Below, one piece after another: positions 53,014 to 64,000 of a DNA stretch of 64,000 nucleotides. The notes under the pieces were generated by a model. That model saw only the letters and a list, made by a program, of their open reading frames with translations. It ran no database searches and was not told the DNA's origin. Source of the DNA: Piscinibacter sp. (lineage in GTDB: Bacteria > Pseudomonadota > Gammaproteobacteria > Burkholderiales > Burkholderiaceae_C); assembly GCA_017983795.1 (NCBI GenBank), contig JAGOAS010000001.1, positions 372,001 through 436,000 of the forward strand. Reading direction: 5' to 3'. Position numbers and translations under genes: made by a program. The first letter of the stretch is position 1. The number at the start of each line of letters is the position of its first letter.

Positions 53014-53060
53014 TGGCTCCCCGACCTGGGCTCGAACCAGGGACCTACGGATTAACAGTC
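53014..53060 (-). tRNA. Truncated tRNA-Asn(GTT), 3' part only: island attachment scar
   Basis: 47 nt from the anticodon arm to the encoded CCA. The anticodon region reads GACTGTTAATC; then come the variable loop, the T-arm (CCTGG-TTCGAGC-CCAGG) and the acceptor 3' strand TCGGGGA-G-CCA. The D-arm and 5' acceptor are absent; upstream sequence is unrelated from 53061 on. The homology stops inside the anticodon stem, the usual crossover place for tyrosine integrases, so this is probably an attachment site with the element to the right. Confidence 0.88.
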
Positions 53061-53215
53061 GAACCGGACGGGTTCAAGGAAGTGGCGTAAGTCGTTGTCG
53101 CTGTTGATGAATTCGGCGTTCTGAAGACGCGCGTTTTGAGCCGAAAAGTGGCTGTTTTCAGGCTGTTTTTTCGAAGTTACGGCACAAATCCGTCACAGTG
53201 TTTGTGGCCTCAAGG
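53061..53215. other. Left end of the putative island, no gene seen
   Basis: 155 bp between the broken tRNA and the first accessory gene. It is AT-richer than the flanking chromosome and holds three T-runs with GCTGTTTT-type repeats (53150-53172). No ORF is convincing. It may contain integrase arm-binding sites. Confidence 0.4.
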
Positions 53216-60696: not shown

Positions 60697-60724
60697 ACCG
60701 CTCGCGGTGGACGCTCTTTAACAA
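60695..60724 (+). promoter_or_regulatory. boxB/boxA-like antitermination signal
   Basis: A perfect hairpin CCACCGC-TC-GCGGTGG (60695-60710) is followed two bases later by GCTCTTTAACAA (60713-60724). This matches the rRNA-operon boxA (TGCTCTTTAACA) in 11 of 12 positions. The hairpin-then-boxA order is that of rrn leaders. It lies 51 bp before the first tRNA. Confidence 0.75.
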
Positions 60725-60775: not shown

Positions 60776-60851
60776 GTGGATGTAGCTCAGATGGCAGAGC
60801 GCGGCCACGCCATGGCCGAGGCCACGAGTTCAAGACTCGTCATCCGCTCCA
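60776..60851 (+). tRNA. tRNA-Gly(GCC), array unit 1
   Basis: 76 nt: acceptor GTGGATG/CATCCGC, discriminator T and CCA encoded. The anticodon loop ACGCCAT gives GCC but has C instead of U at position 33. T-loop TTCAAGA. The 3' half resembles canonical tRNA-Gly. Confidence 0.85.
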
Positions 60852-60994
60852 CTTCGGGTGTGTCCATGCACTCCGAGGCCACATTACATGGTGTTGGTGG
60901 CCCGGGATGTGCGCGGTCCTTGGCCAGACCACGTGCAGCGAGACACCACATCCGACGGGATGCTCGCGTTTGGGCACAGCCGAAGTGGATTCAT
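60852..60994. other. 143-bp spacer in the array, no clear tRNA
   Basis: The longest gap near the array start. It holds a hairpin GGCCAC...GTGGCC around ATTACAT (60888 region), which contains a TAC triplet and might be a decayed tRNA-Val. No acceptor or T-arm can be matched, so nothing is called. Confidence 0.3.
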
Positions 60995-61071
60995 GCCCTC
61001 GTAGCTCAGCAGGCAGAGCAGCCGCCTTGTAAGCGGCAGGCCGCGCGTTCGAATCGTCGCCGAGGGCACCA
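60995..61071 (+). tRNA. tRNA-Thr(TGT), array unit 2
   Basis: 77 nt: acceptor GCCCTCG/CGAGGGC, A-CCA encoded, loop CTTGTAA. The T-arm is imperfect: GCGCG before TTCGAAT faces CGTCGC, with one extra base and mismatches. Confidence 0.85.
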
Positions 61072-61079
61072 CCAGTCAA

Positions 61080-61156
61080 GTCGCGTTCGTCTAGACGGCC
61101 GAGGACACCACTCTTTCAAGGTGGATACGCGGGTTCGAATCCCGCACGCGACGCCA
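61080..61156 (+). tRNA. tRNA-Glu(TTC), array unit 3
   Basis: 77 nt: acceptor GTCGCGT/ACGCGAC, G-CCA encoded, anticodon loop CTTTCAA, T-loop TTCGAAT. The D-region TCGTCTAGAC is typical of bacterial tRNA-Glu. Confidence 0.9.
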
Positions 61157-61249
61157 GCACAAGGAACCCTCGTCGAGCTCACGCTTCGGGGTGGAAATCG
61201 GCCGCAACGATTGGGCGGCGCCGGAACCCGTGACCGGATGGATTTCAGT
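61157..61249. other. 93-bp spacer in the array
   Basis: No tRNA or ORF found; GC-rich. Contains a GTGACCGG segment with a GAC triplet but no surrounding stem. Confidence 0.3.
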
Positions 61250-61328
61250 GGGGGTGTAGCTCAACACCCGGAAGAGCAGCCGCCTTGCAAGCGGCAGGCT
61301 GCAGGTTCGAACCCTGTCACCTCCACCA
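61250..61328 (+). tRNA. tRNA-Ala(TGC), array unit 4
   Basis: 79 nt: acceptor GGGGGTG/CACCTCC (one G-T pair), A-CCA encoded, loop CTTGCAA, T-loop TTCGAAC. The D-loop is long (AACACCCGGAA). Confidence 0.87.
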
Positions 61329-61338
61329 AAAAATCAAC

Positions 61339-61414
61339 GCCTCGTTAACTCAGTGGCCAGAGTGCCGGCCTGTCTAGCCGGAAGCCGCGGGTTCGACTCC
61401 CGCACGAGGCGCCA
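61339..61414 (+). tRNA. tRNA-Asp(GTC), array unit 5
   Basis: 76 nt: acceptor GCCTCGT/ACGAGGC, G-CCA encoded, loop CTGTCTA, T-loop TTCGACT. All arms pair. Confidence 0.92.
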
Positions 61415-61423
61415 GATCAATTT

Positions 61424-61499
61424 GCCGAGATAGCTCAGCAGGTAGAGCGGCGCGTTGAAGGCGCGTGCGTCGGGGGATCGAGGCCCTCTCTCGGCACCA
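61424..61499 (+). tRNA. tRNA-Phe(GAA), array unit 6
   Basis: 76 nt: acceptor GCCGAGA/TCTCGGC, A-CCA encoded, loop TTGAAGG. The T-loop is ATCGAGG, so the invariant T54 is replaced. Confidence 0.85.
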
Positions 61500-61508
61500 G
61501 TAGCCAGA

Positions 61509-61588
61509 ACCTCGTTAGCTCAGCGGGAATTCAGAGCGCCGGTCTACGAAGCCGGAGGTCGCACGTTCGAGTCGTGCACGAGGTGCCA
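61509..61588 (+). tRNA. tRNA-Arg(ACG), array unit 7
   Basis: 80 nt: acceptor ACCTCGT/ACGAGGT, G-CCA encoded, loop CTACGAA (A34 would be edited to inosine), T-loop TTCGAGT. Enlarged D-loop. Confidence 0.9.
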
Positions 61589-61593
61589 ACAAC

Positions 61594-61739
61594 GGGTGCG
61601 TGGCAGAGAGGCCGATTGCGGCTGCCTGTAAAGCAGGCTCCCACGAGGACACGGTGGTTCGCTCAGCGCGCAGCGCTGGACGCGGCGCCAGCCGCGGGCC
61701 GCAGGCCGAGCGCAGCGAGCAATCCATCCGCACCCACCA
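61594..61739 (+). tRNA. tRNA-Tyr(GTA) with a 59-nt T-loop insertion, array unit 8
   Basis: Acceptor GGGTGCG/CGCACCC with A-CCA, loop CTGTAAA, long variable arm (TCC-CACGA-GGA). The T-stem is GGTGG (61653-61657)/CCATC (61724-61728). Its loop TTCG...AAT is interrupted by 59 bases (about 61662-61720, limits uncertain by one base). The insert is very GC-rich, can form GCTGG/CCAGC and GGCC/GGCC hairpins, and starts CTCAGCG and ends GCGAGC. Without it the tRNA is 87 nt with loop TTCGAAT, a normal tRNA-Tyr. Confidence 0.82.
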
Positions 61740-61746
61740 CAGCCAT

Positions 61747-61822
61747 ACCGGGCTAGCTCAACTGGCAGAGCGGCGGCCTCCAAAGCCGAAGGTTCGCGGT
61801 TCGATCCCGTGGTCCGGTGCCA
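61747..61822 (+). tRNA. tRNA-Trp(CCA), array unit 9
   Basis: 76 nt: acceptor ACCGGGC/GTCCGGT, G-CCA encoded, loop CTCCAAA, T-loop TTCGATC. The first anticodon-stem pair is a mismatch. Confidence 0.9.
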
Positions 61823-61827
61823 GACAT

Positions 61828-61913
61828 CTCGACGTAGCCAAGTGGTCGAAGGCGGCGGCCTGCAAAGCCGCAGGCGCAATCCCGCATCCGTTCGAATCGG
61901 ATCGTCGAGTCCA
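61828..61913 (+). tRNA. tRNA-Cys(GCA) with long variable region, array unit 10
   Basis: 86 nt: acceptor CTCGACG/CGTCGAG, T-CCA encoded (T73 is the Cys identity base), loop CTGCAAA, T-loop TTCGAAT. The variable region is 14 nt (AGGCGCAATCCCGC) instead of about 4-5. Confidence 0.85.
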
Positions 61914-61920
61914 GTGCAGT

Positions 61921-62064
61921 TCCCCGATAGCGCAGTTGGCAGAGCGCCTGGCAGTTAGCCAGGAGGTCCGTGGCTGCGCGGGCCCTGCCCGCGGCCTTCG
62001 GCCCGTTGCTGCGCAACGTCCTGCATGGCTGCGCCCTGCAGAGCCAAGCCACGTCGGGGAGCCA
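61921..62064 (+). tRNA. tRNA-Asn(GTT) with a 68-nt T-loop insertion, array unit 11
   Basis: Acceptor TCCCCGA/TCGGGGA with G-CCA, anticodon loop CAGTTAG (GTT, but A33). The T-stem is CGTGG (61969-61973)/CCACG (62049-62053). Its loop holds 68 extra bases (61976-62043 or shifted by two). The insert folds into consecutive hairpins: CGCGGGC-CCT-GCCCGCG, GGCC-TTC-GGCC, GTTGC-TGC-GCAAC and CTGCA...TGCAG. Without it the tRNA is exactly 76 nt. It differs from the truncated chromosomal tRNA-Asn at 53014. Confidence 0.8.
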
Positions 62065-62076
62065 ACTCAGTTTCAT

Positions 62077-62152
62077 CTCGGTGTGGCGCAGATGGCAGCG
62101 CGCGTGATTTGGGATCACGAGGCCGCAGGTTCGAGACCTGCCACCGAGACCA
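62077..62152 (+). tRNA. tRNA-Pro(TGG), array unit 12
   Basis: 76 nt: acceptor CTCGGTG/CACCGAG, A-CCA encoded, loop TTTGGGA, T-loop TTCGAGA, D-stem GCGC/GCGC as in other tRNA-Pro. Confidence 0.92.
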
Positions 62153-62173
62153 GCGTCAGGCGTGTGCTTGGGT

Positions 62174-62248
62174 GTGGCCGTAGCTCAATGGCAGAGCTGT
62201 GGGCTGTGATCCCGCGGGTGCCGGTTCGACTCCGGCCGGCCACCCCCA
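62174..62248 (+). tRNA. tRNA-His(GTG) lacking G-1, array unit 13
   Basis: Acceptor GTGGCCG/CGGCCAC, loop CTGTGAT, T-loop TTCGACT. The base before position 1 is T, not the G-1 needed by HisRS, and one extra C stands before CCA. Confidence 0.82.
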
Positions 62249-62266
62249 AGCACATGCGAACTCCAT

Positions 62267-62342
62267 GCGTCGCGAACTCGAGCGGCAGAGTACCGGCCTC
62301 TTAAGCCGGCGAGTCAGGGTTCGAGCCCCTGGCGACGCACCA
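62267..62342 (+). tRNA. tRNA-Lys(CTT), array unit 14
   Basis: 76 nt: acceptor GCGTCGC/GCGACGC, A-CCA encoded, loop CTCTTAA, T-loop TTCGAGC. All arms pair. Confidence 0.92.
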
Positions 62343-62349
62343 GCAACAA

Positions 62350-62436
62350 CCCCTTGTGGCGGAAATGGCAGACGCACCGGTCTCAGAAACCGGGGCCCGC
62401 ACGGGCATGTCCGTTCGACTCGGACCGAGGGGACCA
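62350..62436 (+). tRNA. tRNA-Leu(CAG), array unit 15
   Basis: 87-nt class II tRNA: acceptor CCCCTTG/CGAGGGG (C1-G72 instead of the usual G1-C72), A-CCA, loop CTCAGAA, variable arm GCCCGCACGGGC, T-loop TTCGACT. Confidence 0.88.
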
Positions 62437-62442
62437 AACAGC

Positions 62443-62517
62443 AGTCCTGTAGCTCAGCGGCAGAGCGGCGCCCTCATAAGGCGAAGGCCGGTGGATCGTA
62501 CCCACCCAGGACGATCA
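62443..62517 (+). tRNA. tRNA-Met/Ile(CAT) with 1:72 mismatch, array unit 16
   Basis: 75 nt: AGTCCTG faces CAGGACG, so position 1 (A) and 72 (G) do not pair, as in initiator tRNA. The D-stem (C11-G24) is of the elongator type. Loop CTCATAA, T-loop ATCGTAC (T54 replaced). The encoded end is TCA, not CCA. A lysidine-type Ile tRNA cannot be excluded. Confidence 0.75.
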
Positions 62518-62586
62518 GTTCCATCAACCACCCGAGGAGGTGTGCCATGAAACCGTTCGACGAAGACGACACGTGCTTTCACGACC

Positions 62587-62755
62587 ATGAGCAAGCGGCG
62601 CAAGGGATTCCCGTCCGAGACGGGCGTCAAGCGCGGTGATCGCGTCGTGCGAGGAACCAAGGAGCTGAGCGAGAAGCTCGGTCGCAACGACCCATGCCCC
62701 TGCGGCTCCGCGAGGTTGTTTCAAGCACTGCTGTCTGCGCAGCGGGTCTCTTTGA
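62587..62755 (+). pseudogene. SEC-C motif mini-gene, frameshifted
   Basis: ATG 62587 opens [20 protein letters not shown] and reaches the SEC-C zinc motif [11 protein letters not shown]. One extra T in GTTTC (62719-62721) then shifts the frame. The next frame continues [11 protein letters not shown] to TGA 62755, completing the consensus CPCGSxxxFKHCC. As read, the protein would be 58 residues ending SAQRVSLTA at 62763. A separate 30-codon ORF (ATG 62547, strong GAGGAGG) overlaps its start. Confidence 0.6.
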
Positions 62756-62810
62756 CGGCGTGAACCGTCATCACTATCGGCGCTGACGACGCGTCGGCGC
62801 AGAACGACAC

Positions 62811-62901
62811 GGAGAGCTGCCCGAGTGGCAAGGGGCTGGCTTGCTAAGCCAAGGCCGGTGATCACATCGCCGCGGGCGTTCGATTCGCCCGCTCTCCGCC
62901 A
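62811..62901 (+). tRNA. tRNA-Ser(GCT), array unit 17
   Basis: 91-nt class II tRNA: acceptor GGAGAGC/GCTCTCC, G-CCA encoded, loop TTGCTAA, long variable arm GGCCGGTGATCACATCGCCG, T-loop TTCGATT. Confidence 0.9.
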
Positions 62902-62907
62902 GACAGG

Positions 62908-62983
62908 TGCGGCGTAGTCGAGAGGCCTCAGACACCAGCCTTTGAAGCTGGGGACGTTGGTTCGAATCCAACCGCCGCTGCCA
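62908..62983 (+). tRNA. tRNA-Gln(TTG), array unit 18
   Basis: 76 nt: TGCGGCG faces CGCCGCT, so 1:72 is a T-T mismatch (Gln normally has a weak 1:72 pair). G-CCA encoded, loop CTTTGAA, T-loop TTCGAAT. Confidence 0.85.
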
Positions 62984-62993
62984 GGAACTCAGT

Positions 62994-63069
62994 ACGTCCG
63001 TAGCTCAGCGGCAAGAGCGCGACTCTCCGAAGGTCGAGGCCGGTGGTTCGAGCCCACCCGGACGTTCCA
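62994..63069 (+). tRNA. tRNA-Arg(CCG), array unit 19
   Basis: 76 nt: acceptor ACGTCCG/CGGACGT, loop CTCCGAA, T-loop TTCGAGC, CCA encoded. Discriminator T is unusual for Arg. Confidence 0.85.
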
Positions 63070-63110
63070 ACCATCCACCCCAAGCTCTGGCCGATGAAAG
63101 GAGGCCGCCC

Positions 63111-63686
63111 ATGCACCACCCACACCACAGCCATGTGCTGCAACTCGACATCCATGGCACGCCACAGGCGTGGATCTCGCTCGAGCACGCGGCGCTGCAT
63201 GTGGCCACGGGCTCGGTGGCCTGGGTCGACGGCGACGGCCCGCTGGCCACGCTGCGTGGTGGCTACAACGTCGCTCGCGGCCGGCAGTCGCATATTGACA
63301 TCCACCCGATCATGGCGCTCACCGGTGCCTCCAAGGTCAACCTGTTCGGCGTGGTGCCGGCGTTCACCAAGGCCAAGCTGTTCCGGCGTGACCGGATGAC
63401 CTGCGCCTACTGCGGCCAGCGGTTCAACGAACGCGACCTGTCGTGCGAGCACATCCTGCCGCAGTCGCGCGGTGGCCGCTGGACCTGGATGAACCTGGTC
63501 TCGGCCTGCGGCGCGTGCAACGGCCGCAAGGCCGACCGCACGCCGGAGGAAGCGGGCATGCCGCTGCTGTACCTGCCGTACGTGCCAAGCCGCTTCGAGG
63601 ACTTTCTGCTCGAAGGCCGGCACATCCGCGCCGACGTGCACGAGTGGCTGGCCTCGCGCCTGCCGAAGGGATCGCGCCTGAGCTGA
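63111..63686 (+). CDS. HNH endonuclease inside the tRNA array
   Basis: A 191-residue protein. ATG 63111 follows AGGAGG. The C-terminal half is an HNH domain of the McrA-like type: CAYCGQRFNERDLSCEHILP provides two zinc Cys and the catalytic His, and NLVSACGACNGRKADRTPEE supplies the Asn and the second Cys pair. The N-terminal part (LEHAALHVATGSVAWVDGDG) may recognise DNA. HNH genes are repeatedly found in mobile tRNA clusters; here it may promote spread or homing of the array. Confidence 0.9.
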   Translation: MHHPHHSHVLQLDIHGTPQAWISLEHAALHVATGSVAWVDGDGPLATLRGGYNVARGRQSHIDIHPIMALTGASKVNLFGVVPAFTKAKLFRRDRMTCAYCGQRFNERDLSCEHILPQSRGGRWTWMNLVSACGACNGRKADRTPEEAGMPLLYLPYVPSRFEDFLLEGRHIRADVHEWLASRLPKGSRLS

Positions 63687-63827
63687 TGAAGCTTTGGCGC
63701 CCACGCATCTGCCGTGAAAGGCGAACGCTCACAGGCCAGGGGTTCGTGAACCCCGCCGGTGGGCGGTGTCCGGGCGCAAGTCCGTCGATGCCGTCCATGC
63801 CGCGTCGCCGGAAGCGGTGGATACCCC
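63687..63827. other. 141-bp spacer after the HNH gene
   Basis: No ORF. Contains a hairpin GGGGTTC-GT-GAACCCC (63740 region) that looks like a T-arm but lacks the T-loop consensus. No tRNA can be assembled. Confidence 0.3.
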
Positions 63828-63882
63828 GGCCATCGATGGATCGCACCGCAAGGTGCCAGGTTCGATTCCTGGATGGCCTCCA
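63828..63882 (+). tRNA. 55-nt tRNA-like unit without D and anticodon arms, array unit 20
   Basis: Acceptor GGCCAT/ATGGCC, discriminator T and CCA encoded. The T-arm CCAGG-TTCGATT-CCTGG is perfect. Between acceptor and T-arm stands only CGATGGATC and a hairpin GCACC-GCAA-GGTGC with a GNRA loop. There is no anticodon. It could be a minimal tRNA mimic or a deletion product. Confidence 0.6.
63832..63847 (+). repeat. 16-bp direct repeat, right copy
   Basis: ATCGATGGATCGCACC, identical to 60681-60696; lies within the 55-nt tRNA-like unit. Confidence 0.85.
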
Positions 63883-63958
63883 CTGGATAGCTCAGTCGGG
63901 TAGAGCAACGACCTGATAAGTCGTCTGTCGCGGGTTCGACTCCCGCTCCAAGCAGCCA
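63881..63958 (+). tRNA. tRNA-Ile(GAT) with degenerate acceptor, array unit 21
   Basis: Good D-arm, anticodon arm (ACGAC-CTGATAA-GTCGT) and T-arm (GCGGG-TTCGACT-CCCGC). The acceptor pairs only over TGGA/TCCA; the outer part (CAC versus AGC) does not match, and the 5' end overlaps the CCA of the previous unit. An encoded CCA ends at 63958. Confidence 0.75.
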
Positions 63959-64000
63959 GAACCGGTCGAGAGACCACCGCCGAACGTGCACCGAGGGCGC

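Follow-up and report, generated by a model that had tools for sequence, protein, structure and literature searches.

An RtT-like structured element in the T-loops of tRNA genes from Burkholderiales tRNA arrays

Introns of archaeal tRNA genes can occur at T-loop positions and are spliced by EndA and a ligase. Short palindromic elements lie inside genes, including RNA genes, in Rickettsia, and non-autonomous elements of the IS200/IS605 type and the RAYT/REP (repetitive extragenic palindrome) group insert 3' of a short fixed sequence, cause no target duplication and form hairpins. In E. coli, the RtT RNA of the tyrT operon (RF00391; rttR), an orphan known as the tyrT operon repeat, is a domain placed inside a T-loop between TTCG and AAT. 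For bacterial tRNAs, the portion of the literature drawn on here mentions group I as the sole intron type, found in the anticodon region (PMC4090602), and our literature search found no title or abstract beginning on T-loop inserts in bacterial tRNAs. Here we describe a tRNA-Tyr(GTA) and a tRNA-Asn(GTT) gene of Piscinibacter sp. that carry such inserts. Both lie in a tRNA array within a 64,000-nucleotide (nt) stretch of DNA (the window, G000:C45:372001-436000; loci and genomes are cited below by L and G numbers) of a draft genome (G000; 4.24 Mb, 45 contigs). These inserts link RtT to precise T-loop inserts across Burkholderiales, with a defined site and structure and with species whose orthologs can be compared with and without the insert.

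The inserts of 59 and 68 nt that a first-pass annotation had reported in the two genes are real: their coordinates were confirmed (Table 1), and, together with these two, 23 places with the element were seen in Burkholderiales, comprising 20 array tRNA genes of 10 isotypes and three truncated or degenerate tRNA-like genes. The Tyr and Asn inserts are copies of one structured-element family, which in array tRNAs stands 18 times in forward and twice in reverse orientation and measures 59-69 nt where the whole element is kept; two RtT-like copies measure ~86 nt. Family members were first found by scanning 119 sequences for tRNAs with enlarged T-loops. Four His-tRNA inserts served to build model R1 and 21 copies to build model R2; the Tyr element of the window scores 50.2 bits with R1 and 57.1 bits with R2, and the Asn element, on the minus strand, 45.4 and 57.8 bits. 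Five further loci (L133, L138, L139, L141, L149) are repeat encounters of places already counted. With their inserts in place, the two window genes are missed by both ARAGORN and the Rfam tRNA model, which is a warning for genome annotation.

The element consists of a closing helix, CTC/GAG, that encloses four hairpins in the order hairpin 1, GGA, hairpin 2, the hairpin GGCC-GAA-GGCC, GA and hairpin 4, with GGA and GGCC-GAA-GGCC conserved. Twenty-one copies were aligned to R1, leaving out the remnant in L113 and the L125 copy that R1 missed (A6). In this alignment, whose fitting to the structure favours the covariation figures, pairing holds in 97.3% of 439 cells, 11 of the 22 pairs change on both sides (hairpin 1 at 5/5 of its pairs) and double-change cells number 64 as against 18.5 in shuffles; the 19 cells that are not Watson-Crick include 7 G-U and 3 A-C. 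The paired share, the both-side pairs and the double-change cells are reached by none of 500 shuffles and the number of pair types by two, and sliding the pairing partners abolishes pairing. Base-pair covariation in the helices of the element is strong. Since the element recurs at 23 places and its covariation exceeds that of shuffles, the inserts go beyond chance.

Uninterrupted orthologs define the insertion site exactly. Joining the flanks of the Tyr insert gives an 87-nt tRNA-Tyr(GTA) that is accepted by ARAGORN and differs at 2 of 87 bases (97.7% identity) from the uninterrupted tRNA-Tyr of L041 and L043, in which the T-loop TTCG^AAT, within TTCG^AATCC, spans the exact junction; the empty site is present in L041, L043 and L076. 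For Asn, uninterrupted 76-nt orthologs (L039, L041, L048, L054, L060, L103 and others) read CGTGG-TTCGAAG-CCACG, and two T-loop bases of the window gene have changed relative to this TTCGAAG. The earlier statement that removal of the inserts restores standard tRNAs holds for Tyr. Homologous arrays do contain intact tRNA-Tyr and tRNA-Asn; for example, both are uninterrupted in the array of Methylibium PM1 plasmid RPME01. The first-pass annotation had also put the two inserts at almost the same place. The point is in fact the same, but on the plus strand it falls after position 57 in Tyr and after position 55 in Asn, the Asn copy being inverted: its interruption between U55 and C56 is G57^A58 of the palindromic TTCGAA read on the other strand, as the empty orthologs confirm. 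Both elements thus lie at TTCG^A on opposite strands, and the Asn element belongs to the family on the minus strand. The GAGC reported as a common end is present in both, but it is the element 3' end in Tyr and the reverse complement of the element 5' GCTC in Asn.

The same point recurs throughout the family. Flanks were joined at 17 forward places (L113 not among them) and compared with uninterrupted array tRNAs; 15 of the 17 have an empty ortholog that extends across the junction, and in these the insert lies at G57^A58, with no base gained or lost and no target duplication seen, while in L064 and L050 material has been lost on one side of the insert. The T-loops vary (TTCG^AAT, TTCG^AGA, ATCG^AAG) around a constant TCG^A. 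Empty orthologs read NTCG^A, with the exception of one of three for the L039 Cys gene (L103, TTCA^A), and the L111 His carrier itself has T58. TCGA is so abundant in the window (563 sites, 32 of these in the array) that something more than this sequence is needed to direct insertion to T-loops. Once the flanks are joined, 14 of 22 places yield an ARAGORN tRNA, and most array carriers keep the D and anticodon arms.

That an ordinary repeat (REP; bacterial interspersed mosaic element, BIME; miniature inverted-repeat transposable element, MITE) or an assembly artefact fell by chance into two tRNAs is very improbable. GC-rich hairpins would suit such repeats, but the same site is occupied in 10 isotypes and in independent assemblies, the two own-genome copies come without target duplication or an own-genome Y1 transposase, and both the family and the empty sites contradict this explanation. 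As specific sources, a MITE was rejected on the two own-genome copies, 57% alike and lacking target duplication, and a genome-wide repeat on pattern and model searches that gave only those two copies. Group I and group II introns were likewise rejected, in agreement with the first-pass annotation, on the lack of any Rfam match to these families and on insert lengths of only 59 and 68 nt.

RtT appears to share with the element the closing helix, a CGTTGC..GCAACG hairpin, a CCGAAGG hairpin, GA and hairpin 4, and in E. coli every RtT domain is flanked by the TTCG and the AATCC of a tRNA-Tyr 3'-part copy. The RtT linker differs from the GGA of the element, and the 3'-part copies are without D and anticodon arms, whereas the window Tyr and Asn genes keep all tRNA arms. 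With its insert, the window tRNA-Tyr matches RF00391 at 29.7 bits over model positions 1-130 (E 7.6e-4 in 471 nt; the gathering score is 45 bits); L140 and L141 match at 25.9 and 25.6 bits. Over 150 family genomes RF00391 gave no match above the cut-off, while an E. coli control genome did; 12 genomes matched at E<=1, of which the own locus and L125 are real and the other inspected loci are chance (L126, L127, L129 and L130 not being among the loci inspected). When R2 was run unfiltered on the E. coli K-12 tyrT region (L132), the four best matches were the four RtT domains, at full length and on the tyrT strand, with 16.3-18.8 bits and E 0.05-0.13; the next match in L132 has 9.0 bits. Scores alone would be weak, and it is place, strand, register and hairpin order together that make a common architecture of element and RtT likely.

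Two RtT-like copies, in L140 and L125, stand just downstream of a tRNA-Ser in a truncated tRNA 3' copy, an arrangement that does not apply to the window genes. Adjoining them, at L140 1333-1471 and L125 1370-1526, matches to Rfam sX4 that fall below its gathering score extend over the tRNA-Ser and the sequence downstream. The one carrier in G217 is degenerate and not part of an array; it is flanked on one side by a Band_7 gene and on the other by a gene of unknown function that is followed by rtcB. Such copies would fit genes that have been turned into a different structured RNA comparable to RtT of E. coli, made of acceptor and T-stem plus the four-hairpin domain and perhaps with a role in RtcB repair, and the compensatory changes that keep the structure fit it too. 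Most array carriers keep their D and anticodon arms, which speaks against this conversion, and we regard it as unlikely.

In the genomes searched, the element is restricted to tRNA or RtT-like contexts. R1 matched 15 of 399 family genomes, of which nine hold the whole element, all in T-loop or RtT-like contexts, and six are chance on inspection; under its strict filters this search recovered one of the two own copies, so that counts elsewhere are lower bounds. A core pattern that did not include the T-loop gave 37 places in 34 of the 399 genomes as against ~32 matches (hand count) in the reversed control, which makes most of its matches chance and leaves structure as the ground for accepting the real ones. 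Seven of these places have the whole element, all in tRNA T-loops; 11 of 17 places with a paired hairpin 2 were dropped as chance, and five places without a locus were judged from the matched letters only. A pattern of the two T-loop ends gave 16 places in 16 genomes, six real and ten lacking a T-stem followed by CCA, with no control match among the matches listed; an unfiltered listing of TTCG[CG]TC was noisy. From the R1 locus searches, eight of 26 matches were dropped as chance (L058, L040, L083, L114, L110, L115, L113:6087 and L111:6087), four after inspection and the rest by their place in the HNH gene. R2 under strict filters over 274 genomes of the class matched the own genome only, where two copies were all that the pattern and model searches gave. 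No carrier was seen among housekeeping tRNAs of the genomes searched, and uninterrupted tRNA-Tyr and tRNA-Asn exist elsewhere in the own genome.

Searches for a donor were negative within their scope: R1 found no element in six plasmid arrays (L003-L008), a first pattern scan of viral contigs (53 stretches) gave no real element, and in a second scan 15 of the 80 places examined among the matches listed had a possible T-stem and none was tRNA-like by eye. A blastn search with one element matched a single coding sequence in plasmids and nothing in phages.

Carriers are scattered across the tips of a tree of the HNH endonuclease gene that adjoins the arrays (43 rows). A row was labelled a carrier if any insert was present in its locus or contig, so the tree shows recurrent gain or loss and not which of the two; 17 carrier rows require 16 changes, as compared with 13.7 in shuffles, and at least ten changes are forced by well-supported branches. 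For example, L105, with an insert in tRNA-His, is sister to the empty L109 with support 100/99. Gains (or losses) of the element are recurrent and recent. Copies within one genome are 57-59% alike in three pairs, the median among all copies being 59%.

Some carriers have decayed. Four of the 20 array carriers (L050, L055, L064, L113) are structurally broken, the figure for the other array tRNAs being no more than 32 of 624 (p=0.02) in a post hoc comparison whose baseline includes genes cut by contig ends. The L039 tRNA-Tyr has the anticodon TTA, and the window tRNA-Asn has the anticodon loop CAGTTAG with A at position 33, a base found there in none of the 652 ARAGORN tRNAs of the array loci. 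Among ten carriers that could be tested, a set that does not include L056, exons are more diverged than array neighbours in the tRNA-His of L111, L117 and L105 (the last against L109), and not clearly so in Tyr (two), Cys, Thr-like, Gln and Glu (two). We did not adopt a missing U33 as a mark of decay in general: 4 of 17 carriers lack it as against 50 of 652 array tRNAs (p=0.04), and the sign is weak because C33 is common in arrays and the L111 Glu carrier shares C33 with its empty orthologs. Among the 652, 49 have C33 and one G33, with Gly(GCC), Val(TAC), Glu(TTC) and His frequent in this group, so that array tRNAs depart from the near-universal U33 rule. Two other array genes are irregular in a different manner: a tRNA-Arg(ACG) at L111 4746-4904 has an ~83-nt insert near the variable region and T-stem that is not the RtT-like element, and a tRNA-Pro at L060 4888-4986 has an additional ~18-nt hairpin within or close to the variable region.

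With moderate confidence we read the element as an RtT-like DNA insert that is specific to T-loops, has been acquired repeatedly by dispensable tRNA arrays and probably disables the tRNA. It would enter accessory array tRNA genes as DNA, precisely between G57 and A58 (NTCG^A) and mostly in the sense orientation. The insert would most likely block the contact between D-loop and T-loop and so disable the tRNA, a loss that would be tolerated since the arrays are dispensable. The first-pass annotation had listed inactivating palindromic elements among its options; this option is now favoured because of the two orientations, the recurrent scatter, the decayed carriers and the absence of housekeeping carriers from those seen, and it is modified in that the palindromes become one specific RtT-like family. 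Several observations weigh against an inactivating DNA insert. The two own-genome copies are only 57% alike and same-genome pairs are no closer than the rest, unlike what an amplifying element would give. Forward orientation is favoured (~13:2 events by hand count, p=0.007), a bias that would not follow from a palindromic DNA target by itself, and the exons of seven of the ten tested carriers are not clearly more diverged than their neighbours. The R2 scores of the RtT domains are near chance, as the same search gave chance matches of 17.2 and 16.6 bits in the GC-rich loci L140 and L125, and the RtT match of the window tRNA-Tyr is below the gathering score. Finally, no transposase was found: Y1_Tnp is absent from six of 11 carrier genomes (G000, G002, G371, G361, G297, G418).

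Y1_Tnp is present in the other five carrier genomes, and a RAYT/IS200 transposase was rejected as the mover on this inconsistent presence. The element resembles IS200/IS605 and RAYT/REP elements in the fixed short sequence 5' of the insert and the lack of target duplication, and differs from them in that only T-loop sites were seen here and in the missing Y1 transposase of the own genome and five further carriers. Rickettsia palindromic elements are likewise short palindromes within genes, and they are not known to be limited to one tRNA position.

In another reading, a tRNA with an enlarged T-loop would function, or have a special role, with the insert retained. When five whole carriers were folded, the minimum for the tRNA-Pro of L056 (24% of the ensemble, z -3.2) was a cloverleaf whose T-loop contains the four hairpins, and exons are conserved in many carriers. 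The other four (window Tyr, window Asn, L105, L060) have a minimum that is not a cloverleaf plus domain, some carriers are decayed, and insertion at 57/58 would, by established tRNA structure, split bases of the D-loop/T-loop contact. We therefore think a tolerated extension improbable.

Removal of the insert at the RNA level, with the domain cut at its base by its own ribozyme or by an endoribonuclease to leave a 2',3'-cyclic phosphate and a 5'-OH that RtcB would seal, is a minor possibility that deserves mention. The junctions are exact and size-neutral, exons are often intact (those of L056 Pro are identical over 76 bases to three uninterrupted orthologs), the conserved fold has unpaired GGA and GA and can coexist with a cloverleaf in L056, and sense orientation is favoured. 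Additionally, rtcB lies 0.7-5.5 kb from the element in nine of 11 carrier genomes (on another contig in G361, none found in G175), and the G217 carrier is near rtcB without an array. Against an intron stand the two inverted copies, the decay of several carriers, the lack of any housekeeping carrier among those seen, and the form of the junction, where by eye a 3x3 internal loop bounds the GCTC/GAGC helix. Archaeal tRNA introns share with the element the short insert and the nearby RtcB ligase gene, and differ in the bulge-helix-bulge, which by eye is not seen here, and in the inverted copies found here.

Linkage to RtcB does not decide the matter, as rtcB accompanies arrays irrespective of inserts (7/10 with and 18/33 without, p=0.48), a comparison that lends no support to RtcB as an insert-specific partner. 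A similar set of genes is known from Anabaena, where rtcB, slipin and HNH genes and a tRNA array belong to the regulon of one repressor (trn operon, TrcR; PMC10272220). There array, rtcB, slipin/Band_7 and HNH genes are linked by regulation and here by place, and the part of that paper used here does not mention T-loop inserts (PMC10272220). A ligase for splicing would be at hand near the arrays, but its presence is explained without splicing. Of the unknown splicing route suggested in the first-pass annotation there remains an rtcB gene 1.5 kb downstream of the window array, and no result specifically supports splicing. We doubt that the RtT-like domain serves accessory arrays as a minimal intron, with excision at G57/A58 and sealing by the RtcB encoded next to the array; if it did, carrier tRNAs would mature only while RNA repair is active. 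The family described here makes it possible to test what moves the element and whether tRNA inserts are removed in bacteria whose rtcB is linked to an array.

Table 1. Features of the window and tRNA genes that carry the element elsewhere.
Feature	Position or locus	Strand	Remarks
tRNA-Tyr(GTA), T-loop interrupted	61594..61739	+	146 nt; ARAGORN accepts joined flanks
RtT-like T-loop element in Tyr, forward	61662..61720	+	59 nt; between G57 and A58; models R1/R2
tRNA-Asn(GTT), T-loop interrupted	61921..62064	+	144 nt; uninterrupted orthologs
RtT-like T-loop element in Asn, reverse	61976..62043	-	68 nt; R1/R2; ends from empty orthologs
tRNA array	60776..63960	+	17 ARAGORN tRNAs, Tyr, Asn and a further Rfam tRNA match (63884-63950)
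Array-associated HNH endonuclease gene (PF14279)	63111..63686	+	also adjoins arrays in related genomes
boxA-like leader CGCTCTTTAACA, 5' of array	60712..60723	+	read from sequence
Forward carriers, Tyr	window, L039		
Forward carriers, Cys	L039, L064, L134		
Forward carrier, Thr-like	L048		anticodon TGC; nearest empty ortholog is the window tRNA-Thr
Forward carriers, Pro, Gln and Phe	L056 (Pro), L060 (Gln), L135 (Phe)		
Forward carriers, His	L017, L105, L111, L117		
Forward carriers, Glu	L050, L055, L104, L111, L113		
Reverse carriers	window (Asn), L100 (Asp)		
Truncated or degenerate tRNA-like carriers	L140, L125, L136		

The 17 ARAGORN tRNAs of the array span 60776 to 63069, near the end of the window, and directly past this end follow a Band_7 gene, rtcB (G000:C45:437495-438616) and a Fic gene. 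By the HNH gene tree, the closest relatives are in Ideonella sp. A 288 and other Burkholderiales genomes, then in Rubrivivax. The boxA-like leader presumably serves the array as such leaders do, and GCTCTTTAACA, again read from the sequence, likewise precedes the PM1 plasmid array. On the minus strand of the window at 53014-53061, positions 30-76 of a tRNA-Asn recur unchanged but without the rest of the gene; this may be the scar that a genomic island left at its attachment site. AbiEii-type and ParDE genes separate this copy from the array. An RNA ligase family gene is found within the tRNA array of a Variovorax plasmid (L005 1206-2267). At 63828-63882 of the window there is a mini tRNA-like sequence with the acceptor GGCCATC/GATGGCC, the T-arm CAGG-TTCGATT-CCTG and a TCCA end, in which a single hairpin replaces the D and anticodon arms; a weak match to YrlA (Y RNA-like; E 0.049) overlaps it.
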